Source: Allomuricauda sp. (GTDB taxonomy: Bacteria > Bacteroidota > Bacteroidia > Flavobacteriales > Flavobacteriaceae). From it: a DNA stretch of 32,741 nucleotides. Below are positions 8,114 through 27,790 of the stretch, one piece after another (the first letter of the stretch is position 1; each line of letters starts with the position of its first letter). The notes beneath the pieces are model-generated. The model was not told the DNA's origin and did no database searches. It saw only the letters and a list, made by a program, of their open reading frames with translations. The translations under genes were made by a program, and so were the position numbers. The DNA lies in contig JASBTS010000186.1 in assembly GCA_030148305.1 (NCBI GenBank), positions 1 to 32,741 on the forward strand. The letters run 5' to 3'.

Positions 8114-9214
8114 ATGTCTGAACTTAAAAATCGGTATCTATCCCTCGATGTTTTTCGCGGGTTGGATGTTGCCCTGATGATTGTGGTCAATTCCCCTGGA
8201 AATGGCTCTACCACATTTGCTCCCTTAAATCATGCCAGCTGGAATGGCTTTACCCTGACCGACCTCGTATTTCCTACCTTTCTTTTTGTGGTGGGAAATT
8301 CCATGAGCTTTAGTATGAAAAAATACGAGAGCATGGGAAGCGGTGCCGTATTTAAAAAGGTATTCAAACGGACTGCCATCATTTTCTTGTTGGGATTTTT
8401 GATGTATTGGTTCCCTTTCTTTGATGACGGACATTTAAAACCATTTGCCGAGACCCGTATTTTTGGTGTGTTGCAGCGTATTGCCCTGTGCTATATGTTC
8501 GCTTCGATCATACTCCATTTTGTAAAGTCGAAGACCGCCATTTGGCTCAGCCTTATTTTTTTGGTGGCCTATCACCTCATTCTGATCGGTTTTGGGGATT
8601 TGACCCTAACCGGGAATGCAGTTTTAAAATTGGACGAGTGGCTCATCGGCCCTAACCATATGTACCATGGCGAAGGAATCGCTTTTGATCCCGAAGGACT
8701 CTTGAGTACTTTGCCGGCGATTGTGAATGTGATCATTGGTTTCCTTGCCGGGAAATTCATCCAAAAGAACGGCCAGAACTTTGAGACTATTTCCAAATTG
8801 ATGATGGTTGGTTTTGCGCTGGTCTTTGCCGGTTTGGCCTGGGATCTTTTACTGCCGATCAACAAAAAATTATGGACCAGTTCCTTTGTGTTGCTCACCT
8901 GCGGAATCGACCTGGTTGCCATTGCCACCTTGATCTATTTCCTCGACATGAAAAAAACGAAGGGTTGGAGTTACTTTTTTGAAGTGTTCGGCAAAAACAC
9001 CCTTTTCATTTATCTGTTATCGGAATTGTTCGTGATCAGCTTATTTTCCATTGACATAAATGGTTCCTCCCTGTACCGATGGATCGCTGACAATGTCTTT
9101 ATATCGTGGTCTGGAGGATATATGGGTTCCCTATTGTTTGCACTTTGGATCATGCTAACCTGTTGGGTAGTGGGGTATTTTATGGACAAAAAGGGGGTTT
9201 ACGTGAAAGTGTAA
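8114..9214 (+). CDS. HGSNAT/DUF5009-like polytopic acyltransferase-family protein
   Basis: 366 residues from the ATG at 8114 (MSELKNRYLSLDVFRGLDVA). A TTG at 8087 would add nine residues that do not look like the family start, so 8114 is preferred. The SLDVFRGLDVALMIVVNSPG opening and about ten hydrophobic helices match the bacterial relatives of heparan-alpha-glucosaminide N-acetyltransferase (DUF5009/COG4299). In that family the RGLD region and an NxPG segment are conserved and the protein moves acetyl groups across the membrane to sugars; the substrate here is unknown. It is a single plus-strand gene, divergent from odhA and convergent (5-base gap) with the next minus-strand gene. A Bacteroidota-specific role in glycan turnover is plausible but unproven. 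Confidence 0.82.
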   Translation: MSELKNRYLSLDVFRGLDVALMIVVNSPGNGSTTFAPLNHASWNGFTLTDLVFPTFLFVVGNSMSFSMKKYESMGSGAVFKKVFKRTAIIFLLGFLMYWFPFFDDGHLKPFAETRIFGVLQRIALCYMFASIILHFVKSKTAIWLSLIFLVAYHLILIGFGDLTLTGNAVLKLDEWLIGPNHMYHGEGIAFDPEGLLSTLPAIVNVIIGFLAGKFIQKNGQNFETISKLMMVGFALVFAGLAWDLLLPINKKLWTSSFVLLTCGIDLVAIATLIYFLDMKKTKGWSYFFEVFGKNTLFIYLLSELFVISLFSIDINGSSLYRWIADNVFISWSGGYMGSLLFALWIMLTCWVVGYFMDKKGVYVKV

Positions 9215-16852: not shown

Positions 16853-17152
16853 TTAATGTGTGGCAAAAGTAGCCTGTCTTTTTTCAAGCTGCTTTCGCAA
16901 GTCTTCAATTGTATTGGCCATGGACTTTTCAAAATCATCAGAACTGGATTTGGCAAAGATTCTTGGACCCGGTGCGCTGTGCTCTATCTCACATACTTTG
17001 CCCTCTCCGGATTTATCGTTCTCTGTTTTAAAAAGCACATTGGCCTTGATCAACCAACTGTATTTTGTTTCCAAACCTTCCAGCTTTTTCATCAACAATT
17101 GGGTCAATGATTCACTGGTCATCATTTTCTGATATTGAACATGTACTTCCAT
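16853..17152 (-). CDS. HPF/RaiA-family ribosome-associated protein
   Basis: 99 residues, the size of short HPF/RaiA proteins, which bind the 30S decoding region and hold ribosomes inactive during starvation or hypoxia. The fold signature is present: an N-terminal strand (MEVHVQYQKM), a first helix (SLTQLLMKKLEGLETKYSW), central strands (ANVLFKTENDK; KVCEIEHSAPGPRIFAKSS) and a second helix (DDFEKSMANTIEDLRKQLEKRQ). No C-terminal dimerisation extension is present, so it is the short type. The gene is preceded by a Crp/Fnr-type promoter (17174-17216) and followed by a lipoprotein gene. The family call is by fold pattern and is less certain than for the enzymes nearby. Confidence 0.78.
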   Translation of the reverse strand: MEVHVQYQKMMTSESLTQLLMKKLEGLETKYSWLIKANVLFKTENDKSGEGKVCEIEHSAPGPRIFAKSSSDDFEKSMANTIEDLRKQLEKRQATFATH

Positions 17153-17173: not shown

Positions 17174-17216
17174 TAAAACTACTACTACAATAATTGGTAT
17201 TAAATGACAATTGTCA
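17174..17216 (-). promoter_or_regulatory. Crp/Fnr-type activated promoter of the RaiA/HPF gene
   Basis: In gene sense the box CTGACAATTGTCAT has the perfect palindromic core TGACAATTGTCA (17205-17216). Its centre is 33 bp upstream of the centre of TAGTTTTA (17181-17174), 7 of 8 matches to TAnnTTTG. No TTTG is present at -33. The predicted leader is about 18 bases. The spacing equals that of four other promoters in the window. Confidence 0.7.
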
Positions 17217-17233
17217 GTTCTAGTTCCATTCAG

Positions 17234-18556
17234 TTAGCCTAAGAAGAAAGGTTGCCCTGTACTTTGCAAAACCGAAAACCAAAACTCACCCTCAAGATCG
17301 ATTTTCTTTCTTTTTTTGGTGACTTCTGAAATAGGCACATAAACGTATTTATTGTTCACTTTGCTGGCCACGAACTTGGTCTTACCGGCCATGGCCCCAT
17401 GTACGGCATGGTAGGCCAGTACACTACAGTATACACTATCACTGGAATTGGCGGGGGCACACCTGATGATATAACTGGGGTCGATATACTTGATCGTCAC
17501 CGGGGTATTCCGTTCTTTAAAATAGTCCCCTATTTTTTCCTTTAGGAAAACACCTATATCCTCATGCTTAATGTTCCCTGAAGCATCTTTGACTTCCTTC
17601 CTGTTCTTGAACAATTGCTGACCGGCCCCTTCCGCAACTACAATGACGGCATGTTTTTTCTGTTCCAGACGTTGTTCCAAGGCTTTTAGAAATCCGTTAT
17701 TACCCTCAAGCGAAAAGTTCATTTCAGGCACTAGGACAAAATTTACCACAGGCATGGCCAAAGAGGCAGAAGCTGCAATGAAACCACTATCACGACCCAT
17801 CAACTTTATGATCGAAATGCCATTATAGGCCCCGGTTGCCTCGTTATGGGCATCCCGTAATATGGGACTGGCCACATCAAAAGCCGTTTCAAAACCGAAG
17901 GATTCATCAATGAGGTCGATATCATTGTCTATGGTCTTGGGAATACCTACCACGCTGATCTTGGCATTTCTTCGGGAGATTTCCTCACCGATGGCGTTTA
18001 CCCCTTTCAAGGTTCCATCCCCTCCAATGGCAAACAACATATCAACATTGTTATTCTGAAGGGTATCCACCATGACCCCAACATCCTGTCCACCTCTGGA
18101 AGAGCCTAAAAAGGTCCCCCCAAATTGATGAATGTCCCGCACTTTTTCAGGATTAAGTTCCACAAAACCATGCCCCTTTTCGGGGTTCAATCCTTCATAC
18201 CCGTATGGAATGCCAATAATCCTTTTCACTCCATAAAAATAATGGAGGGCCATGACCACTCCCCTAATCACATTGTTGATCCCTGGGCATAATCCCCCGC
18301 AGGTAACAATGGCCGCAGTAACTTCTTTTGAGTCAAAATAGATATGTTGTCTAGGGCCAGCCTGTTGCAAGCAGATAGGCGCCTCGCCTGTGTTGAGACA
18401 ATGGTTGTAATGAGCCAACGACAAGTCGAAAACCAACCGATCCGATTCACTTACAAAATTGAAAAGATGGTCTCCTTTAGTGGTGCTCAGTTTTAAGGGG
18501 GAATCGAATTGCGACTCCCCCAAATGTTCAATATTAAAACGATTTGTTACGCTCAC
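17234..18556 (-). CDS. ATP-dependent 6-phosphofructokinase, long PPi-type lineage
   Basis: 440 residues, longer than the 320-residue bacterial PfkA because of an N-terminal extension of about 80 residues. It phosphorylates fructose 6-phosphate. The phosphoryl-donor loop begins GGLCPGINN (87-95). GGDGT (178-182) carries the glycine that marks ATP use, whereas PKTIDND (206-212) has the lysine typical of PPi enzymes. This combination is known from the ATP-using long PFKs related to the trypanosome and plant enzymes. The usual allosteric architecture of PfkA is not expected in this group. It starts 11 bases after the stop of pckA, so glycolytic PFK and gluconeogenic PEPCK appear co-transcribed. 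Donor specificity is inferred from two residues only. Confidence 0.9.
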   Translation of the reverse strand: MSVTNRFNIEHLGESQFDSPLKLSTTKGDHLFNFVSESDRLVFDLSLAHYNHCLNTGEAPICLQQAGPRQHIYFDSKEVTAAIVTCGGLCPGINNVIRGVVMALHYFYGVKRIIGIPYGYEGLNPEKGHGFVELNPEKVRDIHQFGGTFLGSSRGGQDVGVMVDTLQNNNVDMLFAIGGDGTLKGVNAIGEEISRRNAKISVVGIPKTIDNDIDLIDESFGFETAFDVASPILRDAHNEATGAYNGISIIKLMGRDSGFIAASASLAMPVVNFVLVPEMNFSLEGNNGFLKALEQRLEQKKHAVIVVAEGAGQQLFKNRKEVKDASGNIKHEDIGVFLKEKIGDYFKERNTPVTIKYIDPSYIIRCAPANSSDSVYCSVLAYHAVHGAMAGKTKFVASKVNNKYVYVPISEVTKKRKKIDLEGEFWFSVLQSTGQPFFLG

Positions 18557-18567
18557 TTTACTCTTGT

Positions 18568-20184
18568 TTACAAGTGTTCGGTCAATGTATGATGGGAATC
18601 GATCAACGGTCCACCACTTAAAATTTCTTCGGAAGCTTGGCTAGCAAATTTGTCAAAGTTGATATGGAACGAATGTGCCAACTGGATTGCCTTGCTCACA
18701 TAGGCCCCTTTTTGCAACCAAGTGTTCATGGGATCCAAGATTTCGGTGGGTACTCCAGGACAATACTTGGGCATGTGCAATCCAAAGATAGGATGTGTTT
18801 CATAGTCCACGTCATCCAACTTGCCTTCGAGAATGGCAGAGATCATACCTCTGGTATATTTCAATTTGATCCTGGAACCTATACCATAAGGTCCACCGCT
18901 CCATCCTGTATTGAGCAACCAAACATTCACTCCGGCTTCTGTCATTTTGGTACTGAGCATCTCCGCATAAACGGTTGGATGCAAAGGCATGAACGGTTCG
19001 CCAAAACACGCCGAGAACGATGGTACAGGCTCATTGATGCCTGCTTCGGTTCCTGCTACCTTGGCCGTATACCCCGATATAAAGTGGTATGCCGCCTGAC
19101 CTGGGGTGAGCTTGGAAACTGGGGGCAACACCCCAAAGGCATCACAAGTTAAAAAGAATATGTTAGTTGGATTGGATGCGTAGGACGGCACCTGAATATT
19201 ATCAATATGGTCGATGGGATAACTAACCCTCGTGTTTTGGGTAATGGTGCTATCAAAATAATCCACTTCCTTGGTCCCTTTTTTAAAGACCACGTTTTCC
19301 AAAAGAGCCCCAGGGCGAATGGCCCTAAAAATATCGGGTTCCTTTTCTTCGGTCAGGTCGATGACCTTGGCGTAGCAACCACCCTCAAAATTGAAAATGG
19401 TATTCTCCTTGGTCCACCCATGTTCGTCGTCGCCAATCAATTTACGGTTGGGATCTGCGGAAAGGGTTGTTTTACCGGTTCCAGAAAGCCCGAAGAATAT
19501 TGCGGTATCACCATTTTCGCCTACGTTGGCGGAGCAGTGCATGGGGAGTACTTCTTTTTCCATGGGAAGAATAAGGTTCAGGGCCGAGAAAATCCCTTTC
19601 TTCATTTCCCCGGTGTATGCAGATCCAGCCACCAAGGCAATTTTCTTGGTAAAGTTCAAGATGGAAAAATTCCCGCTCAAGATACCAAATTCCGAAGGGT
19701 TTGGAGCCTCATACCCGGGGGCGCAGAGCACTAGCCATTCTTCTTCAAAACCTTCCAACTCACTCCCCTCCAACCTCAAAAACATATTCTTGATGAAATA
19801 GTTGGACCACGGATATTCCGTAATGGTCCTTACATTCATTCGATATTTAGGGTCGGCGCACACATAAGCATCCCTTATATATACCTCCTTACCTTCCAAA
19901 TATTTGGTGACCTCATCATACAGCTTATCGAAATTTTCGGGAGAGACAGGTTTATTGATCCTGCCCCACCAAACCTTATCTGTGGTATAATCATCCTTTA
20001 CCAAAAAGCGGTCTTTTGGGGAACGACCTGTAAATTTTCCCGTATTCACGCAGAGGGTACCATTTTCGGTCTCCACCCCCATACGTTGTTCCAAGGTCAG
20101 TTTTTGTAAGGTTTCTGCATCTAAATTCCAATGAGCCGTCACTTGATGCAATCCATACTTGCTTAGGTCTTTGGTTGTGTTCAT
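18568..20184 (-). CDS. pckA: Phosphoenolpyruvate carboxykinase (ATP)
   Basis: 538 residues, the normal length of ATP-type PEPCK, which converts oxaloacetate to PEP with ATP (gluconeogenesis) or runs in reverse as an anaplerotic, ATP-yielding step. The kinase P-loop GLSGTGKTT is at 232-240 and the metal-binding GDDEHGW at 251-257. The substrate loop FTGRSPKDRF (51-60) and AYTGEMKKG (189-197) are also present. A 5-bp inverted repeat, CTCCA/TGGAG (20211-20226), and T-rich sequence lie upstream, but I see no confident promoter or Crp/Fnr-type box. The phosphofructokinase gene follows after 11 bases. The upstream uspA unit ends at the hairpin 20254-20270. Confidence 0.97.
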   Translation of the reverse strand: MNTTKDLSKYGLHQVTAHWNLDAETLQKLTLEQRMGVETENGTLCVNTGKFTGRSPKDRFLVKDDYTTDKVWWGRINKPVSPENFDKLYDEVTKYLEGKEVYIRDAYVCADPKYRMNVRTITEYPWSNYFIKNMFLRLEGSELEGFEEEWLVLCAPGYEAPNPSEFGILSGNFSILNFTKKIALVAGSAYTGEMKKGIFSALNLILPMEKEVLPMHCSANVGENGDTAIFFGLSGTGKTTLSADPNRKLIGDDEHGWTKENTIFNFEGGCYAKVIDLTEEKEPDIFRAIRPGALLENVVFKKGTKEVDYFDSTITQNTRVSYPIDHIDNIQVPSYASNPTNIFFLTCDAFGVLPPVSKLTPGQAAYHFISGYTAKVAGTEAGINEPVPSFSACFGEPFMPLHPTVYAEMLSTKMTEAGVNVWLLNTGWSGGPYGIGSRIKLKYTRGMISAILEGKLDDVDYETHPIFGLHMPKYCPGVPTEILDPMNTWLQKGAYVSKAIQLAHSFHINFDKFASQASEEILSGGPLIDSHHTLTEHL

Positions 20185-20253
20185 GTTTTTGTTTTTTAGT
20201 GGTTTATAAACTCCAAACCAATGGAGTCAATATTAAGTTGTATTAAGAAAGAG

Positions 20254-20270
20254 AAGGGGCATTGCCCCTT
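20254..20270 (-). terminator. Probable terminator of the uspA transcript
   Basis: AAGGGGC (20254-20260) and GCCCCTT (20264-20270) form a perfect 7-bp stem with loop ATT. On the minus strand it is followed by the pyrimidine-rich tract TCTCTTTCTT, a weak T-tract. It lies about 100 bases after the uspA stop and before pckA, so it would separate the two transcripts. The plus strand also has TTCCTTT. Confidence 0.6.
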
Positions 20271-20284
20271 TTCCTTTAACTATG

Positions 20285-20353
20285 TTATGAACTTGTAACC
20301 TTTGGCCAATTGGCGGGACATTCATCAACACAAGAATGTTCTACCACACCCAT
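20285..20353 (-). CDS. Candidate 22-residue peptide gene behind uspA (speculative)
   Basis: A minus-strand ATG at 20353 opens 22 codons to TAA at 20287-20285. The peptide has two cysteines four residues apart (HSCVDECPANW) and no hydrophobic stretch. It lies 18 bases after the uspA stop, and its own stop is 14 bases before the terminator hairpin at 20270-20254, as expected for a last gene in a transcript. At this length a chance frame cannot be excluded, and I recognise no family. Confidence 0.2.
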   Translation of the reverse strand: MGVVEHSCVDECPANWPKVTSS

Positions 20354-20371
20354 TACCTTTACTAGATTGAC

Positions 20372-21163
20372 TTAATCCAAGGTCAGCACCGGAACTTCGG
20401 AATGTAGCGTCAACAGTTTGGTCAAACGTCCTTCGGATGGGGTACTCCTCATGGTATGGTTCCTAGGTAAAATGGCCAAAAGATCTATATTTTTCTCTTT
20501 GATATAGGTAAGGATACCCTCTTCCACATCTTGGTTTTTGTTGAAGGTATGTTCGGCATAAAAATGCTCCAAATAGTACTCCAACAGGTTTTCTGTCTGT
20601 TCTGTCACGGATTCTTCAGCATAAACGGATTCTTTGTAGATGGTCAACACGTGTACACGTGAGTCAAAGGTGCGGGCAATGTCCAAAAGGGTTTTTAGCA
20701 CATCTTTGTCATCAATTTTATCGCCTCCAAGAACCAAAGCGATATCCTTGGGTTCTTTAATGGCACATCCGTAAGGAATGGAAATTACAGGACAATTGGC
20801 CTGCAGTACCAATTTGGAGGTATTGGTGATGGCCTCATCCGTAATCTTATCGCCCATGGTGCCCATCATGATAAGATCTGCATCACTTTTCTTTTGGGCC
20901 GAAAGAATGGTAGTGATCACATTACCTGTCTCCGTGGCAAAAGTAGGGGACACTTTTAACCTTACACCAAGGGACTCCATTACTTTTGCAAAATCCGTTT
21001 TAAGTTTTTCCCCATCCCTATCATCAATGGGCATACTGCTCACATAAAGGGCGAAAATCTCAATGGTACGTTCTGTGCCAATAAAGTTGACAACGTACTC
21101 CAAGGCGTTCAAGGAAGCCTCTGAAAAATCAAAGGGAACCAATATTTTTTTAAATCTGCTCAT
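20372..21163 (-). CDS. Universal stress protein, two tandem UspA domains
   Basis: 263 residues made of two Usp domains (about 1-140 and 141-263). The N-terminal domain begins KKILVPFDFSEASLNALEYV, the standard first strand and helix. The nucleotide-binding GxxG-x9-G(S/T) motif is degenerate: MMGTMGDKIT is followed by NTSKL in place of GS. The C-terminal domain lacks the motif (AILPRNHTMRS), so this protein may bind ATP poorly or not at all, unlike the paralogue at 27808. UspA proteins are induced by growth arrest and oxygen limitation. The gene has its own Crp/Fnr-type promoter (21199-21241) and is followed by a possible tiny peptide frame and a terminator. Confidence 0.9.
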   Translation of the reverse strand: MSRFKKILVPFDFSEASLNALEYVVNFIGTERTIEIFALYVSSMPIDDRDGEKLKTDFAKVMESLGVRLKVSPTFATETGNVITTILSAQKKSDADLIMMGTMGDKITDEAITNTSKLVLQANCPVISIPYGCAIKEPKDIALVLGGDKIDDKDVLKTLLDIARTFDSRVHVLTIYKESVYAEESVTEQTENLLEYYLEHFYAEHTFNKNQDVEEGILTYIKEKNIDLLAILPRNHTMRSTPSEGRLTKLLTLHSEVPVLTLD

Positions 21164-21198
21164 ACCTATTATATTTAATTATTCCTTAACTCCTGATT

Positions 21199-21241
21199 CA
21201 AATGTAGAGTCAGCCCATGACCTAAAATATGACAGGTGTCA
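21199..21241 (-). promoter_or_regulatory. Crp/Fnr-type activated promoter of uspA
   Basis: Gene-sense box CTGACACCTGTCAT (core 21230-21241, both half-sites perfect) is centred 33 bp upstream of TACATTTG (21206-21199), an exact TAnnTTTG -7 box. There is no TTTG at -33. The predicted leader is about 30 bases. The box lies 67 bases from the uspA start and 119 from the divergent kinase start, so uspA is the more likely target. Confidence 0.75.
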
Positions 21242-21359
21242 GGTTTTAAACTTTTGCATGATATTAGCAAATATTCTTCCTTTTTAAAAGCAAGGCAGGT
21301 TATTTTTTTGTCTCCATATTGGTTATATTTAATTACTTCAAAATTTAGTACCCCCAATT

Positions 21360-22319
21360 ATGGATTTAGTAATAGGAATAGACATCGGTGGCACCCAAAC
21401 CAAAATGGGATTGGTGGACCAAAACGGAAAGTGTCATGACAAAACCGTTTTTAGGACCAAGGATTACCCCGATCTTGAAAAATATTTGGACCAGATCAAG
21501 GAGACTTCCGATAATCTTGTCAAAAATTTTGGGCAACCCGTCAACATCCTTGGATGTGGCATTGGGGCCCCTAATGCATCAAGTAAAAATGGCACCATTG
21601 AAAATGCGAGCAACCTGGTTTGGAAAGGTAGTGTTCCCTTGGTAAAGAAGCTTCAAGAACGTATGGATATGCCCATCCGGATCATGAACGATGCCAGTGC
21701 TGCAGCTTTGGGCGAATTACTCTTCGGATGCGCCAAGGATATGACGGATTTTATTGTGATCACTTTAGGAACCGGATTTGGTGCAGGTATTGTGGCCAAC
21801 GGTAAATTAATTGATGGCTTCGACGGCTTTGCCGGGGAGTTGGGTCATGTGGACATGACTTTGGGTGATGGCAGACTCACCGGACTGGGAGTTAAGGGTG
21901 GCTTGGAAGCCTATGTTTCGGCCACCGGGCTCAAAAGGACCATTATGTATATGCAAAGCAAATACTTGACTGAGAGTAGGTTTCGGGATATTGCCTATAA
22001 CGACCTTCATGGGGAAGATATCACCAAAGCTGCAGAAGAAGGGGATGAAATTGCCCTCATGGCTTTTGACTATACCGCACGCATCATGGGATTGGCGTTG
22101 GCCAACTTTACGGCCTTTACCCAACCGGAGGCTTTTGTACTTATGGGTGGACTCACCAATAGTGGAAAATGGATCATGGATCCGTTGAAGGACTATTTTG
22201 AAAAATCGTTGTTGGAAGTGTATAAAGGAAAGGTAAAATTGATCCTTTCGGGCATGGAAGGAAAAACAGCCGCCATCTGCGGCGCAGCGGCCTTAATTTG
22301 GGAAAATCATAAAAATTGA
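21360..22319 (+). CDS. ROK-family sugar kinase (glucokinase-like) lacking the zinc cysteines
   Basis: 319 residues. ROK proteins are ATP-dependent sugar kinases (glucokinase, fructokinase, N-acetylmannosamine kinase) or repressors. No helix-turn-helix precedes the domain, so an enzyme is expected. The phosphate loop is IGIDIGGTQTKMG (5-17), the catalytic Asp is D111 in MNDASAAALGE, and the second phosphate loop is LGTGFGAGI (136-144). Sugar ligands E160 and H163 are present in GELGHVD. The family zinc motif CxCGxxGCLE is replaced by TGLGVKGGLE (174-183), with all three cysteines lost, although the flanking GR and EAY are kept. Upstream is uspA in divergent orientation; tonB follows after 99 bases. 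Kinase class is well supported, sugar identity is not. Confidence 0.88.
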   Translation: MDLVIGIDIGGTQTKMGLVDQNGKCHDKTVFRTKDYPDLEKYLDQIKETSDNLVKNFGQPVNILGCGIGAPNASSKNGTIENASNLVWKGSVPLVKKLQERMDMPIRIMNDASAAALGELLFGCAKDMTDFIVITLGTGFGAGIVANGKLIDGFDGFAGELGHVDMTLGDGRLTGLGVKGGLEAYVSATGLKRTIMYMQSKYLTESRFRDIAYNDLHGEDITKAAEEGDEIALMAFDYTARIMGLALANFTAFTQPEAFVLMGGLTNSGKWIMDPLKDYFEKSLLEVYKGKVKLILSGMEGKTAAICGAAALIWENHKN

Positions 22320-22353
22320 TGGCTTCAAATCAATTATTGTCATTTTACTAACC

Positions 22354-22396
22354 TGATTATTATCATGTTTTTTGATTTTGGGCTAAGCTATCTTTA
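22354..22396 (+). promoter_or_regulatory. Crp/Fnr-type activated promoter of tonB
   Basis: Gene-sense box CTGATTATTATCAT (core 22354-22365) is centred 33 bp upstream of TATCTTTA (22389-22396), 7 of 8 matches to TAnnTTTG. The sequence between contains TTTTTTGATTTTG but no TTTG at the -33 spacing. The predicted leader is about 19 bases before the ATG at 22419. Confidence 0.65.
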
Positions 22397-22418
22397 ACCT
22401 AGTTAAATAGTAAAAGTC

Positions 22419-23147
22419 ATGAAACCAAAAAAGAACCCAAATGCCGAAATAGGACGCAATAGTAGTCTTTATTTCATGTTAGGCCTTACTTCGGTATTGT
22501 TAGTTACATGGCAATCCTTGGAAGTAAAGGTCTACGAAAAGGAAACCACTGCCTCAGAAATTGTTCAGGTAATGGATGACCTAAAAGAGGATGTTCCCAT
22601 CACAGAAATGATGAGAACCACCCCTCCGCCCCCACCACCCTCCGCACCAGATGTGATTGAAATCGTTGAAGATGTGGAAGAAGTGGAAGAATCCGTTATA
22701 GAGAGTACCGAAAGTAGCCAAGACACCTACATAGAAGACGCCATTGTAAAAGTGGACGATGTGGATGTGGAAGAAGTGGAAGAAGAAATAGTGGTACCCT
22801 TTGCCATAATTGAATACGTTCCCGTTTTTCCTGGATGCGAAATCTATCAAACCCAAGAGGAACGCAAGGAATGTTTTAACGAAAAGGTACAAGAGCACAT
22901 AAAACAAAACTTCAACTACCCCCCTGCTGCTTTGGAGATGCAAATAACAGGTAGAGTGTATGTTCAATTTGTGATCGATTCCCAAGGCAGGGTTAGCGGC
23001 ATAGAAAAAAGAGGTCCGGATAGGATGTTGGAAGAAGAAGCTGCCCGAATCATCTCTACCTTGCCCAAGGTAAAACCCGGACAACAACGTGGTAAGGCCG
23101 TAAGTGTTAAATACAGCATACCGATCAACTTCATCATGAAGCAATAA
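22419..23147 (+). CDS. TonB-family energy transducer
   Basis: 242 residues. TonB links the inner-membrane ExbB/ExbD motor to outer-membrane TonB-dependent receptors. A short cytoplasmic tail is followed by one membrane helix (about 16-32), a proline stretch (PPPPPPSAP, about 69-77), an acidic valine/glutamate-rich periplasmic linker (about 78-130), and a C-terminal TonB domain (about 150-242) with FNYPPAALEMQITGRVYVQF and VIDSQGRVSG. The segment VFPGCE with a second cysteine in KECFNE is typical of Bacteroidota TonB homologues. A Crp/Fnr-type promoter precedes it, and a strong bidirectional terminator follows. Bacteroidota carry several TonB genes, so this one may serve only certain receptors or conditions. 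Confidence 0.9.
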   Translation: MKPKKNPNAEIGRNSSLYFMLGLTSVLLVTWQSLEVKVYEKETTASEIVQVMDDLKEDVPITEMMRTTPPPPPPSAPDVIEIVEDVEEVEESVIESTESSQDTYIEDAIVKVDDVDVEEVEEEIVVPFAIIEYVPVFPGCEIYQTQEERKECFNEKVQEHIKQNFNYPPAALEMQITGRVYVQFVIDSQGRVSGIEKRGPDRMLEEEAARIISTLPKVKPGQQRGKAVSVKYSIPINFIMKQ

Positions 23148-23167
23148 GGTTAACAGCCGGATGAAGT

Positions 23168-23201
23168 AAAAAAGGTCCAAACCAAGGTTTGGACCTTTTT
23201 T
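23168..23201. terminator. Strong bidirectional terminator between tonB and the aspartoacylase-like gene
   Basis: A perfect 16-bp stem runs from AAAAAAGGTCCAAACC (23168-23183) through loop AA to GGTTTGGACCTTTTTT (23186-23201). The A-tract and T-tract make it work on both strands. It starts 21 bases after the tonB stop. The stop codon of the convergent minus-strand gene (23200-23202) lies within the far end of the stem. Confidence 0.92.
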
Positions 23202-24402
23202 ATGCGTTGTACCAAATCGTGGAATTGTAATCTTTGGATTTAGATGCTCGTTCCCTGTTCTTGGCCACTAAATGGGTCACATCATACTTGCGGGCCCTGT
23301 ACCCTAACAAATGCAAAAAGGATTTAGCAAAAAAACGCGCCACCCTTTGGTCCACCATCAACGTATCCTTGTCCTTGGATTTCCATTGAACACCTGGTAA
23401 TTTTACAAGCAAATGATCTACCTTGAATCTCCGCAGTTCCTTGGACATCCACAATAGAAATTTGGGAATGGGTCGGATGAAGTAAAATCCTTCGTTCCCC
23501 TGCACTTGGTAAAGGGGCATAAAGATCTGTCTTTTTTTTACCGTTTTCAATTCAATGCCATTTTCAATTGCAATACTTTTCCCTTTGGGAATATCTTGAA
23601 AGTTGACAAACCCAGGCAGCATTTTAAAGTGGTTATTGGGGGCGATCAAATGTTGATGGTAGATTTCGTAAAATTTATGGTTTTCCGCTCCTTCCTCTGA
23701 AATGGCTTTTCTTAATTTTTCCTCCTCTTCGGAAGAGACTAAAATAGTTTCCGTGAGCGCCATGGAGTACCGAATAAAGGCAATGCAGTTTTGAATAGCC
23801 TTGCCATCGTTGTGCTGACCACTTTCAAAACCTAAGGAAACGTAACCCAATTCGTTGATATAACTCAACAGGGCACCTTCCAAATATTCTTCAATCCCCA
23901 AAATAATAGGTAACGGATAATGGGAAGCATATTTTCTGTTCAACAAACTATCGTTCATGACCATGAATGGGATGGTATCACTGGAGGTGGTATGAAGATC
24001 TAAAAAATAAAAAGGAGGCTTTCCGTTTTCCAGTATTTCCTGTAACAACGTGTACAAATGTTTCAGTTCATCATCCTCCTGATGTTGAACCATATCCTTG
24101 TCCACTACAGAGGATATCCGTTCCGGGAACCAAATCCGGTTCAGATCTTCTTGTTGATACCTCAAGCTTTTGGCCAATGCCCCAAGATTTCCGGTAATGG
24201 CATATACTTCACCATGAATGGGGATATTTTTGGACCTGATTTCTTGAAAAACCTGTTTCAGCGCAAAAACCCCAGCAGGTTCATTTCCATGGATCCCCCC
24301 AAAGAAAACCAAAGTCGGGCCCCTCGATTCTCCTTGCAAATGATCGAGGACCCGATCCACCTCAACGGTTTCATTCAACGCTATGCTATGTACTTTGCAC
24401 AT
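23200..24402 (-). CDS. Succinylglutamate desuccinylase/aspartoacylase-family metalloenzyme
   Basis: 400 residues from the ATG at 24402 (MCKVHSIALNETVEVDRVLD). A longer frame starts at 24465 but overlaps the upstream gene, whereas 24402 gives a 2-base gap. Family members are zinc enzymes that remove acyl groups from N-acyl amino acids. The zinc ligands are H38 and E41 in GIHGNEPAG and H137 in FLDLHTTSS. DLNR (86-89) and E193 in GFESGQHNDG match the substrate and catalytic residues. The C-terminal 190 residues include a beta-rich lid region. No arginine-succinyltransferase genes are nearby, so arginine catabolism is unlikely; pairing with the GCS2-CBS gene points to an N-acylated or peptide-like substrate that is not identified. 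It probably shares the Crp/Fnr-type promoter of its partner. Confidence 0.87.
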   Translation of the reverse strand: MCKVHSIALNETVEVDRVLDHLQGESRGPTLVFFGGIHGNEPAGVFALKQVFQEIRSKNIPIHGEVYAITGNLGALAKSLRYQQEDLNRIWFPERISSVVDKDMVQHQEDDELKHLYTLLQEILENGKPPFYFLDLHTTSSDTIPFMVMNDSLLNRKYASHYPLPIILGIEEYLEGALLSYINELGYVSLGFESGQHNDGKAIQNCIAFIRYSMALTETILVSSEEEEKLRKAISEEGAENHKFYEIYHQHLIAPNNHFKMLPGFVNFQDIPKGKSIAIENGIELKTVKKRQIFMPLYQVQGNEGFYFIRPIPKFLLWMSKELRRFKVDHLLVKLPGVQWKSKDKDTLMVDQRVARFFAKSFLHLLGYRARKYDVTHLVAKNRERASKSKDYNSTIWYNA

Positions 24403-24404
24403 GA

Positions 24405-26249
24405 TTACAGATCCACTTTGCTGATGATACCTATTACATGATTGTCCACACAAACTGGAAGACAACCAATTTGATGATCTTTCATCAAATTCTTGGCTGT
24501 TATAATTTCCGTTTTAGGCTGAACCGTGATCACTTCTTTGATCATGATGTCCGACACCTTTGCTTCCTCCTTGTCCAGTCTTTCCAATTTTTCCATATGG
24601 CTCCAGGTAAGTAACCCTACCAATTCACCTTTGCCATTTTCAACCGGAAGATGATGTATGTTGTTCCATTTCATGATAGCTACCGCCAAATTCGCATAAT
24701 CATCTTCATAGAGCTTTATAAGTTTGGTACTCATTATCTGTCCCACCCAGTGGAAGGATTCAGCAGTCTCCGCCATTCCTTCAATTGGTTTCCATTCATG
24801 AACCGGCGATCGGGATTCCTGGTTTTGGTGCATGGCCTTGGTCAATTGCACAATAGCACTATCCAGCTTCATTTGACTCCTAAGACCCCTAAAGTTCTTG
24901 ATCTGCCATTCGGCCCCGGTTCCATTTTTGAGCCTTCCCTCAATTATGCCTAACAGTCGTGAAATATCGGCTTCATCAATTTTGAATTTTCGCAATCCTT
25001 CATAGGCAATGGGCAAGAGTTCTTCCCGCACCAACTTTTTAGCCGAAATGATCTTGCCCATCCATGAGAACATGGCCTGCCTACCATTCATGGCGGCCCG
25101 AAGAAAATTGAGTTTGGCTTCCCTAAAATCCATGACTGTGGGCATATCGTCAAACTGTGGAGTCCTGCCCGCCATTAACCCTACCCAGAATGCAAAATTG
25201 GCCATCTCATCCAATACTGTCGGGCCGGAAGGAATGAATCTACTCTCAATCCTGAGATGGGGTTTTCCGTTCCCAACGCCATAACACGGGCGGTTCCATC
25301 TGTAAATGGTACTGTTGAAAAGATTGAGGGCCTCCAACTTCGGTACTTTTCCATCATTCAAAAGTCCCAAGGAATTTTGAGTAATGGGTTTGGTAAGCAA
25401 AATGCGATGGGTAGAAATATCCTGTTTGAAAATTTCGGCTACGGAGTTCTGCTGCCATCGTTCCCCAAAACCTACCCGTGCCACTTGTTCCTTTACGGCC
25501 TTGGTCCATTTTCTGGTATCAAGACTTTGTTGGAATAGGGCAATTCGCGTTTCCCTCCAGAGTTCCTTGCCCAAAAGCAAGGGCGAATTACAACAAATGC
25601 CCAATACCGGACCTGAAATGGCCTGTGCCCAGTTGTAGCTTTTGGTAAAATCTTCCGGGGCAATCTGCAAATGCAACTGAAAACTGGTATTGCAAGCCTC
25701 AAACAGAACCGAATCATGGTGAAGAGACAATTCATCCGCGCCTTTGATCCTGACCGAAAAATCATCACCCCGCCATGTTTTTAAAATTTCATTGATCCGA
25801 TAATATCTCGGTATCGGGGTCATAAAATCCATCCCCAACTCATCTTTGCTTATGGTAGGCAAAATTCCTGTCAACAATATCTTCGCTCCGGATAAGGCCG
25901 CCTTATCATTGGCTTTCTTCAACAATCCTTCCAACTGGTTCTGCATGGAACGAAAACAATCCTGCTGAAGTATCAGAGGGTCCAGATTGGCCTCGAGATT
26001 GTAACTGGCCAGTTCAGTGGTAAAATGGGAATCGTCCAGTGCCGCAATCACTTCGAGCGATTTCGGCGCAGGTCTATAATCCTGATTGATCAGGCACATT
26101 TCCTGTTCGGCGCCGATTCGAACCTTATCGTTTTCAATAAGCCCTTCCCGAATCATACGTTCCAGGGCATTGATATCATCGATCAAATGGACCACAAAGG
26201 CTTTACGTTCCTTCTCATCGGATAGGCTTTCGGCTATATGTTCTCCCAT
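24405..26249 (-). CDS. GCS2-type carboxylate-amine ligase-like protein with CBS domain pair
   Basis: 614 residues. Residues about 45-430 resemble glutamate-cysteine ligase family 2 and YbdK-like carboxylate-amine ligases, starting with GAEQEMCLINQDYRPAP (46-62), which carries acidic metal ligands. Other family-like segments are LHLQIAPEDF, GNGKPHLRIESRFIPSGPT and FREAKLNFLRAAMNGRQA. Such enzymes use ATP to join an amine to a carboxylate. The C-terminus is a CBS pair: about 495-550 (IMSTKLIKL to LVGLLTWSHME) and 556-614 (VSDIMIKEVITVQP to GIISKVDL), usually an adenine-nucleotide sensor. The fusion suggests amide synthesis tuned by energy status. The partner 2 bases downstream could hydrolyse the product or a related one. 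A Crp/Fnr-type promoter lies upstream. The substrate is unknown, and a glutathione role is not supported. Confidence 0.82.
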   Translation of the reverse strand: MGEHIAESLSDEKERKAFVVHLIDDINALERMIREGLIENDKVRIGAEQEMCLINQDYRPAPKSLEVIAALDDSHFTTELASYNLEANLDPLILQQDCFRSMQNQLEGLLKKANDKAALSGAKILLTGILPTISKDELGMDFMTPIPRYYRINEILKTWRGDDFSVRIKGADELSLHHDSVLFEACNTSFQLHLQIAPEDFTKSYNWAQAISGPVLGICCNSPLLLGKELWRETRIALFQQSLDTRKWTKAVKEQVARVGFGERWQQNSVAEIFKQDISTHRILLTKPITQNSLGLLNDGKVPKLEALNLFNSTIYRWNRPCYGVGNGKPHLRIESRFIPSGPTVLDEMANFAFWVGLMAGRTPQFDDMPTVMDFREAKLNFLRAAMNGRQAMFSWMGKIISAKKLVREELLPIAYEGLRKFKIDEADISRLLGIIEGRLKNGTGAEWQIKNFRGLRSQMKLDSAIVQLTKAMHQNQESRSPVHEWKPIEGMAETAESFHWVGQIMSTKLIKLYEDDYANLAVAIMKWNNIHHLPVENGKGELVGLLTWSHMEKLERLDKEEAKVSDIMIKEVITVQPKTEIITAKNLMKDHQIGCLPVCVDNHVIGIISKVDL

Positions 26250-26281
26250 GAAATTGGCGTTTAAAAGCTACGGTAATTGGA

Positions 26282-26324
26282 TAAAGTTACTGTACTACAG
26301 CGCTTTAAAATATGATAGTTATCA
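26282..26324 (-). promoter_or_regulatory. Crp/Fnr-type activated promoter of the GCS2-CBS/aspartoacylase unit
   Basis: Gene-sense box CTGATAACTATCAT (core 26313-26324) is centred 33 bp upstream of TAACTTTA (26289-26282), 7 of 8 matches to TAnnTTTG. No TTTG is present at -33. The predicted leader is about 29 bases before the ATG at 26249. A second, separate box for hemN lies 51 bp away on the other side. Confidence 0.65.
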
Positions 26325-26363
26325 GCCAATCAAACCTTAAAATAGCCCCATATGGACCAATAC

Positions 26364-26406
26364 TGATATTTGTCATATTTTCTAAATGTCCACCAAGGTA
26401 ATTTTG
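26364..26406 (+). promoter_or_regulatory. Crp/Fnr-type activated promoter of hemN-uspA
   Basis: Gene-sense box CTGATATTTGTCAT (core 26364-26375) is centred 33 bp upstream of TAATTTTG (26399-26406), an exact TAnnTTTG. The -33 position has no TTTG. Transcription should start near 26410, which leaves about 20 bases before the ATG at 26432 but almost none before the ATG at 26414. Confidence 0.78.
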
Positions 26407-26431
26407 GATTATAATGTTAAGGTATGCAGTA

Positions 26432-27790
26432 ATGTGTGAATTAGTTCAAAAATACAATGTGCCTGGTCCTCGGTACACCAGTTACCCCACGGTACCCTAT
26501 TGGGAAGACGATAGTTTTTCAGGAAAACAATGGCAGTCTAGCATTTTGAGGGCCTCTGAGGAACATCCGGGTGAAGGTATCAGCCTTTATATACATCTAC
26601 CCTTTTGTGAGAGTATGTGCACCTTTTGTGGGTGTCATAAACGTATCACCAAACGGCATGAAGTGGAGGTCCCCTATATTAAAGCGGTTCTTAAGGAATG
26701 GGAATTATATGTGGGCCTTATGGACTCCAAACCTGTAATCAAAGAATTGCATTTGGGCGGTGGCACCCCTACCTTTTTTTCCCCAGAGCATTTAAAAATG
26801 CTGATCGAGGGTGTCTTACAATTGGGCAAAAAGGCCCATGACATCGAATTCAGTTTTGAAGGGCACCCCAACAATACTACCAAAGCCCATTTGCAGGCCT
26901 TGTACGAAGTAGGTTTCAGAAGAGTGTGCTTTGGTGTTCAGGATTACAACTTGACGGTACAGCGTGCCATAAACAGGATCCAGCCGTTCGAAAATGTGAA
27001 AAACGTTACGGAGTGGGCCAGACAGATCGGGTATACCTCCGTCGGGCACGACATCATTTACGGATTACCTTTTCAAAATTGTGATGATGTAGAGCAAACG
27101 ATCATGAAGACCAATGCACTAAAACCTGACCGTATCGCGTTTTATAGCTATGCCCATGTGCCATGGTTGAAAGGTAACGGGCAACGAGGGTATGATGAAT
27201 CCGACCTGCCATCCGCAGTGGAAAAAAAGGCCCAGTATGAAATGGGAAAAAGAATGCTTACTGAATTTGGTTACAAGGATGTGGGTATGGACCATTTTGC
27301 TTTGCCTACCGATAATTTATACTTGGCCTTGTTGAACGGTACCTTGCACCGAAATTTTATGGGTTATACCGCTTCCAAGACACAATTGATGATTGGCTTG
27401 GGCGTGTCCAGCATCAGTGATAGTTGGTACGGGTTTGCCCAAAATGTAAAGAATGTGGAAGAGTACGAAGATTTGGTAACACATGGAGTAATTCCTATTT
27501 TTAGGGGACATATTTTGAGTTCTGAAGATGAAGTGCTAAGGAAGCATATCCTCAACATCATGTGCCAATTTAAAACCACATGGACCGAGGAAGAAGAACA
27601 AGTGGCCGATTTTCAAAAAATACAGGAAAACCTCTCCGAGTTGCAATCCGATGGACTTGTTGAAATTGAGGAGAACTCCATTACCGTGACCGAAAAAGGA
27701 AGGCCATTTGTGAGGAATATCAGTATGGCATTCGATTTAAAATTGCATAGAAAAAAACCAGATACCCGAATATTTTCCATGACCGTTTAA
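26432..27790 (+). CDS. hemN: Oxygen-independent coproporphyrinogen III oxidase (radical SAM)
   Basis: 452 residues from the ATG at 26432. HemN makes protoporphyrinogen IX for haem without oxygen, using a 4Fe-4S cluster and S-adenosylmethionine. The cluster cysteines are C59, C63 and C66 in FCESMCTFC, followed by the C68 typical of true HemN. ELHLGGGTPTFFSPEHL, SFEGHPNN and GFRRVCFGVQDYN are further HemN segments. The C-terminal domain contains GYTASKTQLMIGLGVSSISD, where true HemN proteins differ from HemW. An ATG at 26414 would add six residues, but the family starts at MCELVQKYN and the promoter geometry also favours 26432. The uspA gene follows after 17 bases. Haem supply under low oxygen fits the nearby cbb3 genes. 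Confidence 0.94.
   Translation: MCELVQKYNVPGPRYTSYPTVPYWEDDSFSGKQWQSSILRASEEHPGEGISLYIHLPFCESMCTFCGCHKRITKRHEVEVPYIKAVLKEWELYVGLMDSKPVIKELHLGGGTPTFFSPEHLKMLIEGVLQLGKKAHDIEFSFEGHPNNTTKAHLQALYEVGFRRVCFGVQDYNLTVQRAINRIQPFENVKNVTEWARQIGYTSVGHDIIYGLPFQNCDDVEQTIMKTNALKPDRIAFYSYAHVPWLKGNGQRGYDESDLPSAVEKKAQYEMGKRMLTEFGYKDVGMDHFALPTDNLYLALLNGTLHRNFMGYTASKTQLMIGLGVSSISDSWYGFAQNVKNVEEYEDLVTHGVIPIFRGHILSSEDEVLRKHILNIMCQFKTTWTEEEEQVADFQKIQENLSELQSDGLVEIEENSITVTEKGRPFVRNISMAFDLKLHRKKPDTRIFSMTV

Follow-up and report, generated by a model that had tools for sequence, protein, structure and literature searches.

We analyzed a stretch of 32,741 nucleotides from Allomuricauda sp. (hereafter the window, meaning this stretch at its full length), which belongs to a 3.1 Mb genome of 80% completeness, here called G000, and we focus on five promoters in it that share a single arrangement of a Crp/Fnr-type box and a -7 box. 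These promoters precede the genes for a ribosome hibernation factor, a universal stress protein, a TonB-like protein, a CBS-domain protein and a HemN-like protein (Table 1). As stated in the original prediction, which was made from the window alone, all five boxes are present at the positions and in the orientations given there, the centers of box and -7 box are exactly 33 bp apart in five of five promoters, corresponding to 23 bases (N23) between RTCA and TA, and no promoter carries TTTG 18–22 bases before TA, which is the usual distance of the -33 element. The consensus initially proposed, CTGAY-N4-RTCAT, stood in part: TGAY-N4-RTCA fits all five boxes and the trailing T is mostly kept, but a leading C is no general feature of the box. 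In the protein labeled GCS2-CBS, Pfam detected the CBS part and no GCS2 domain at E 0.001.

Table 1 Promoter elements and first genes of the five promoters in the window (nucleotide positions in the window).
Feature	Position	Strand	Sequence	Remark
Crp/Fnr-type box upstream of HPF	17204..17217	-	CTGACAATTGTCAT	
-7 box, HPF promoter	17174..17181	-	TAGTTTTA	
HPF/RaiA-type ribosome hibernation factor	16853..17152	-		Pfam Ribosomal_S30AE, E 3.5e-12
Box upstream of uspA	21229..21242	-	CTGACACCTGTCAT	
-7 box, uspA promoter	21199..21206	-	TACATTTG	
Universal stress protein (uspA)	20372..21163	-		Pfam Usp, two matched stretches
Box upstream of tonB	22353..22366	+	CTGATTATTATCAT	
-7 box, tonB promoter	22389..22396	+	TATCTTTA	
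TonB-like protein	22419..23147	+		Pfam TonB_C
Box upstream of CBS-domain protein	26312..26325	-	CTGATAACTATCAT	
-7 box, CBS-domain protein promoter	26282..26289	-	TAACTTTA	
CBS-domain protein, 614 amino acids, CBS domains C-terminal	24405..26249	-		Pfam CBS
Box upstream of hemN	26363..26376	+	CTGATATTTGTCAT	
-7 box, hemN promoter	26399..26406	+	TAATTTTG	
HemN-like radical SAM protein (coproporphyrinogen dehydrogenase type)	26414..27790	+		Pfam Radical_SAM; HemN_C only below cut-off

In 400 first-order Markov resamplings of the window, not a single exact copy of TGAY-N4-RTCA-N23-TAnnTTTR occurred. G000 contains 22 exact copies and its reversed control none; with one mismatch allowed, the numbers are 52 in all and three, respectively. 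When the spacing was left free between 10 and 36 bases (27 spacings), 22 of 32 matches fell at exactly 23, the other ten were spread over the remaining 26 spacings (one, at 22, in the contig that carries the fusion regulator described below), and the reversed control gave five in total. Open reading frames (ORFs) of at least 150 amino acids, which make up 74–86% of the DNA in this comparison, contain 0/28 of the N23 sites in the 22 G000 loci (overlapping loci counted), 8/176 of those in the 80 named loci defined below, and 3/61, 0/38, 5/33 and 2/30 in four other sets, the sets partly overlapping. Thus, the scan of this genome and its relatives returned a strong and mostly noncoding enrichment of motif plus spacing, and the five sites of the original prediction became 22 exact sites in G000. 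The base preceding TGA in these 22 sites is C in nine, A in six, G in six and T in one, and T follows RTCA in 17. The lineage-specific specificity suggested earlier therefore holds insofar as the box, best written TGAY...RTCA(T), differs from TTGAT-N4-ATCAA, but a far-edge C is not fixed.

Conservation was examined at hemN in 60 genomes of the window's family, one per genus, 42 of which have a HemN homolog at E 1e-100. In the best 30 of these 42 matches, the window's own included, a box lies within 250 bp of the gene at 28 loci and the complete arrangement of box, N23 and TAnnTTTR is present at 27; T follows RTCA in all 27 complete promoters, and the spacers between box and -7 box vary among genera by eye, save for a T-rich start. 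The homologs of the HPF and TonB-like proteins in genome G103 (46% and 57% identity, respectively) are likewise preceded by boxes. We conclude from these sequence comparisons that box, spacing and conservation are established and that the box-plus-spacing set represents a real, conserved predicted regulon with class II-like architecture.

In addition to the five window genes, Pfam assigned the first genes downstream of the G000 sites to a Dps-like ferritin, a biotin carboxyl carrier protein, MlaE, four further Usp proteins, a ribonucleotide reductase large chain, a reductase small chain with an ATP cone, the outer-membrane proteins FadL and OmpW, DoxX, a pyridine nucleotide-disulfide oxidoreductase, DUF6799, an ArsP_1 permease, an FNR-like regulator and one protein without a family. 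The distance from -7 box to start codon is mostly 0–46 bp. Because it is 86 bp for FadL, 91 bp for DoxX, 140 bp for the reductase small chain and 306 bp for ArsP_1, these four are less certain targets. In relatives, for which ~33 first genes from 90 loci were scanned by Pfam (4/90 loci had no frame), boxed genes encode COX1 of the CcoN type, HemN, cytochrome c, ScdA/hemerythrin, pyruvate formate-lyase, formate-tetrahydrofolate ligase, pyruvate phosphate dikinase (PPDK), phosphoenolpyruvate carboxykinase (PEPCK), PPK2, CBS and rhodanese proteins, NadA and further Usp proteins; some of these genes start 100–230 bp downstream of the site, and several downstream frames have no family. As anticipated, the list, taken from G000 or its relatives, consists largely of low-oxygen and survival genes. 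The identity of these downstream genes is set by the sequence, and HemN, a cbb3-type oxidase, ribonucleotide reductases, pyruvate formate-lyase, UspA, HPF and Dps as predicted targets fit oxygen limitation and survival.

Other observations concern the window itself. A single ATGATTGTGGTCAA box at 8177-8190 lies within an ORF, lacks the promoter arrangement and is taken as chance. The uspA and HPF promoters flank the genes for phosphofructokinase and ATP-type PEPCK (17234-20184), which are on the same strand; no exact box was found in the promoter of this PEPCK gene, and the PEPCK gene of genome G130 does have one. Because the matches of most relatives to HemN start at query residues 5–10 and there is an in-frame ATG at residue 7, the true start of hemN may be the ATG at 26432 rather than 26414.

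The regulator gene of the Crp/Fnr family that the original prediction implied was found in G000 (G000:C99:8452-9141). It encodes a 229-amino-acid protein with Pfam PF00027 and PF13545 above cut-off, i.e. a cyclic nucleotide-binding (cNMP)-like beta-roll and a Crp-type helix-turn-helix (HTH), and its own promoter carries the exact box arrangement. An AlphaFold2 model of the ortholog in Allomuricauda profundi (pLDDT 79.7, pTM 0.65) matches 5e44 at a TM score of 0.75. In a sample of 296 genomes across the phylum, all 26 tight orthologs (E 1e-70 or better, G000 included) are divergent from a gene for a heavy-metal P-type ATPase of the CcoI/FixI type and have a box within 400 bp upstream. We also compared the best 80 of 577 FNR-like loci (the named loci; the nearest, at 94%, is that of A. 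profundi). The ATPase gene is present in 77/80, and is divergent with a start within 800 bp in 72; a box is present in 71 of these 72, and NAnnTTTR at N23 toward the ATPase in 68. Across the 80 loci, 69 boxes are spaced at N23 toward the ATPase and five at other spacings from 10 to 36; toward fnr, the numbers of boxes are 37 at N23 and 17 elsewhere. In 69 ATPase-side promoters (L073:9195-9261, L245-L324) the -7 box never starts with T (C 42, A 15, G 12), and this conserved departure from TAnnTTTG may enforce dependence on an activator.

Four cysteines of the FNR-like protein, C5, C8, C54 and C107, are invariant in 16/16 and 26/26 aligned sequences. In the alignment with Aliivibrio fischeri FNR (E ~1e-31), C5, C8 and C107 fall on the ligands C20, C23 and C122 (these numbers, like that of C29, we take to be in the Escherichia coli numbering) and C54 falls on an alanine. 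The recognition helix retains in the alignment the Glu and Arg of FNR, which presumably contact the TGA half-site. Like the box itself, the site before the regulator gene and the conserved cysteines are established from the sequence.

The number of exact sites was determined for the same 296 genomes, of which 158 were entered; no site is present in the remaining 138, for which control counts are not included. The 26 genomes with a tight ortholog contain 434 sites (20 in the control), 30 genomes with a middling FNR-like homolog 142 (7 in the control) and 19 genomes with a weak one 89 (2 in the control). Each of the 30 genomes sampled from the window's family has at least five sites. A distant genome, G271 (family f46), has 28 exact sites and an FNR-like gene (39% identity) with a second Crp-like gene directly downstream.

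A second candidate regulator is a 348-amino-acid protein that combines a receiver, a cNMP domain and HTH_Crp_2 (PF13545) in one chain (G000:C169:36195-37238). In G000 the gene for this fusion regulator is flanked by the gene for a kinase with two PAS domains (Pfam), Usp genes and an Hsp20-like ORF named by eye. The surrounding cluster (L072:5656-18285), with the PAS kinase, the fusion regulator, several Usp genes and one Hsp20-like, one 2-hydroxyacid dehydrogenase-like and one cardiolipin synthase-like ORF (the last three labels assigned by eye), reads like a dormancy island. With seven candidates scored per genome, full-length fusions are present in at least 43 of the 296 genomes, all of the window's class. 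All four sampled family members without a tight FNR ortholog carry the fusion and have 8–16 sites. In G130 (10 sites) and G234 (16 sites), the FNR-like query matches nothing but the fusion at E 1e-8, and the sites cluster around the fusion gene. In G088 there are, in addition, a 34% FNR-like protein and others; G053 was dropped as a fusion-only genome because it encodes a further Crp-like protein from another subfamily.

Of 21 genomes compared, 14 have a site no farther than 10 kb from the fusion gene, while 0.69 would be expected under uniform placement. This comparison covers 21 of the 43 fusion genomes, with 13/17 sites of G126 entered and G118 and G107 left out; among the 13/21 sites listed for G118, none is within 10 kb of the fusion. 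After removal of the three discovery genomes the number is 11/18, and these are from other families of the class. In four further fusion genomes with complete lists (G000, G103, G134, G182), a site lies within ~1 kb in 4/4, the chance of one site within 10 kb being 0.10–0.22 for each. A kinase homolog adjoins the fusion gene at 12/12 loci examined, and the 12 fusion proteins all have the receiver acceptor and the TAK/SAK motifs and keep the Glu and Arg of the helix; the FNR cysteine set is missing from all 12. In seven frames of the PAS kinase, of which that of G182 is divergent, the only invariant His is that of the kinase SHE motif. Box position 5 is G or C in 2/47 sites of three FNR-only genomes and in 11/26 sites of two fusion-only genomes (p 1e-4). 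However, because the G+C content of the fetched DNA differs between these sets (33% and 44%, respectively), a separate operator for each regulator remains a lead; the five sites of the window have A or T at position 5.

Our working hypothesis is that the five sites are class II operators through which the FNR-like activator and the fusion regulator control a low-oxygen and survival regulon, and we consider this explanation as a whole likely. Specifically, a dimer of the Crp/Fnr family would bind TGAY-N4-RTCA, centered ~40–41 bp before the expected start, and the bound dimer would substitute for the missing -33 element and recruit RNA polymerase to TAnnTTTR. In class II promoters activated by Crp/Fnr proteins, the site sits at a fixed distance close to -41.5 and overlaps the location of the -35/-33 element. 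One activator of the boxes is very probably the FNR-like protein, which would probably be gated by an oxygen-labile iron-sulfur cluster on C5, C8, C107 and a fourth ligand, for which C54 is a candidate. The fusion protein, encoded beside the PAS kinase, is probably a second activator acting on the same box and would be switched, again probably, by phosphorylation. Together, both regulators would switch on microaerobic respiration, anaerobic metabolism and survival functions. The sequences support the original prediction that a Crp/Fnr-family activator controls this regulon; oxygen as the signal, the iron-sulfur cluster, protein binding, activation and the sharing of operators by the fusion are what we infer.

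Several observations weigh against this hypothesis. The complete arrangement is missing at 3/30 hemN loci, as is any box within 420 bp at 8/80 named fnr loci. The exact arrangement points toward fnr itself in just 2/26 tight orthologs, and TAnnTTTR at N23 toward fnr is found in 35/72 divergent named loci; judged from these promoters, autoregulation of the FNR-like gene appears clear in G000 and is not general. At the position of the third N-terminal FNR cysteine, C29, neither the 16 nor the 26 aligned sequences share an invariant Cys, and C-x2-C-x4-7-C is found in 0/80 N-termini of the named loci. As for the kinase, Arg or Lys occupies the position of the FixL heme His (H200) in an alignment by eye to FixL, leaving a FixL-type heme sensor unsupported. 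In seven of the 21 fusion genomes, the 10 kb on either side of the fusion gene are free of sites. Moreover, 83 genomes without an FNR-like match at E 1e-25 contain 195 sites (27 in the control), some of the genomes carrying the fusion; the presence of the FNR-like protein alone is insufficient to explain all sites. G124 (6 sites) and G294 (7 sites) lack both a close FNR-like match and a full-length fusion. Because genomes of family f24 with a distant FNR-like homolog have 0–2 sites and none of four distant FNR-like homologs (L108-L111) has a box within 400 bp upstream, the link between box and FNR is not phylum-wide.

We also considered that only the FNR-like protein acts and that the sites near the fusion reflect stress genes clustering there. 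Tight orthologs accompany high site counts, and three genomes of genus g2 without a fusion at E 1e-30 have 8, 16 and 23 sites, which favors this explanation; yet G130 and G234 have their 10 and 16 sites around the fusion with no other FNR-like homolog at E 1e-8, and the proximity of site and fusion recurs in the 11/18 genomes of other families, so that we regard it as unlikely, though of the alternatives it deserves the most weight. Still less probable is that carbon or a cyclic nucleotide, and not oxygen, is the signal sensed by the regulators, as proposed in PMC8510549 for MalR-like CRP/FNR homologs of a Flavobacteriales genome, which may or may not include the ortholog of the FNR-like protein described here. 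While PEPCK, PPDK and the biotin carboxyl carrier protein are among the targets, the core targets are low-oxygen genes (CcoN-type COX1, the CcoI-type ATPase, HemN, pyruvate formate-lyase and the ScdA-type repair protein), and three of the invariant cysteines coincide with FNR cluster positions.

The boxes could also be palindromes for an unrelated factor, the link to Crp/Fnr proteins being coincidental. The link is one of sequence, and in most orthologs the box beside fnr serves the divergent ATPase gene and not fnr. Against such a coincidence, a box lies beside the Crp/Fnr gene in all 26 tight orthologs, the box contains the TGA half-site typical of Crp/Fnr proteins, and Glu and Arg are retained in the recognition helix as in FNR; we hold this explanation to be very improbable. 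With two mismatches allowed, the window gives six matches, five of them the exact sites, where 2.17 are expected, and 4/100 shuffles reach six, a count only mildly above the shuffles that might be read as a chance or compositional artifact. Such an artifact is already refuted, and we assign it a negligible probability, given the 0/400 resamplings with an exact copy, the genome-wide peak at one spacing and the 27/30 hemN loci.

In a broader form, the hypothesis of two regulators on one operator would mean that flavobacteria and other families of the class control low-oxygen and dormancy genes through one operator and two sensors, i.e. an FNR with a rearranged cluster (C5/C8/C54/C107) and a phosphorylation-gated fusion that merges FixJ and FixK, and that in some lineages the fusion alone kept the regulon; to us the chances of this generalization seem even. 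Descriptions of oxygen control in Bacteroidota from outside the gut appear to be few. No description of the regulon was found in open-access titles and abstract openings among the matches listed, RegPrecise and most subscription journals lying outside this search, and a large low-oxygen and stress regulon common to flavobacteria apparently has gone undescribed. For marine and soil flavobacteria, the motif with its exact spacing can be used at once to list candidate low-oxygen genes across a genome, and both the pattern of cysteines and the operator shared by the two regulators in this view are open to direct testing.

With FNR of E. coli and A. fischeri, the FNR-like protein shares the sequence family and fold, cysteines at the C20, C23 and C122 positions, the Glu and Arg of the recognition helix, a class II-like spacing and low-oxygen targets. 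FNR senses oxygen through a [4Fe-4S] cluster whose loss in oxygen governs dimer formation and DNA binding. In contrast to FNR, the FNR-like protein lacks a Cys at the C29 position, has the extra invariant C54 and has Ile for the helix Ser (presumably Ser212 in the E. coli numbering); the box, read from sequence, is TGAY...RTCA(T) instead of TTGAT-N4-ATCAA, its first T being unconserved, and the -7 box is that of Bacteroidota. By sequence and fold, the closest solved structure is the Porphyromonas gingivalis Crp/Fnr protein 2GAU, whose aligned helix differs in having no Glu, the alignment beginning past the CxxC. For Flavobacterium psychrophilum, mapped transcription starts gave TAnnTTTG as the sigma-A box, the cbb3 oxidase and heme genes are up at oxygen limitation, and the main text has no mention of Crp (PMC9723704). 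For CRP/FNR homologs of Flavobacteriales, carbon sensing was predicted (PMC8510549). HcpR of delta-proteobacteria, with the motif wyTTGACnnnnGTCAArw and the targets hcp and frdX, shares the core TGAC-N4-GTCA, and differs in the flanking TT/AA, in its other targets and in its lineage (PMC1274295). Among the Pfam-scanned first genes downstream of the 22 G000 sites there is none of the hcp family, hcp itself not having been searched for.

The fusion and its kinase resemble two further systems. In the FixL-FixJ-FixK system of rhizobia, a PAS kinase, a receiver and a Crp/Fnr output control cbb3 and hemN targets, with FixJ a separate receiver-LuxR protein and FixK the Crp/Fnr protein. The same elements and the same targets recur here, but receiver and Crp/Fnr output are joined in a single protein and the alignment by eye shows no FixL heme His. 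The DosR dormancy regulon of mycobacteria comprises the UspA family, Hsp20, ribonucleotide reductase and a hibernation factor under a regulator with a LuxR-type DNA-binding domain. The regulon described here has the UspA family, ribonucleotide reductase and hibernation factor in common with it, as well as an Hsp20 alpha-crystallin-like protein (by eye, in the cluster of the fusion gene), whereas the output domain is HTH_Crp_2 rather than of the NarL/LuxR type.

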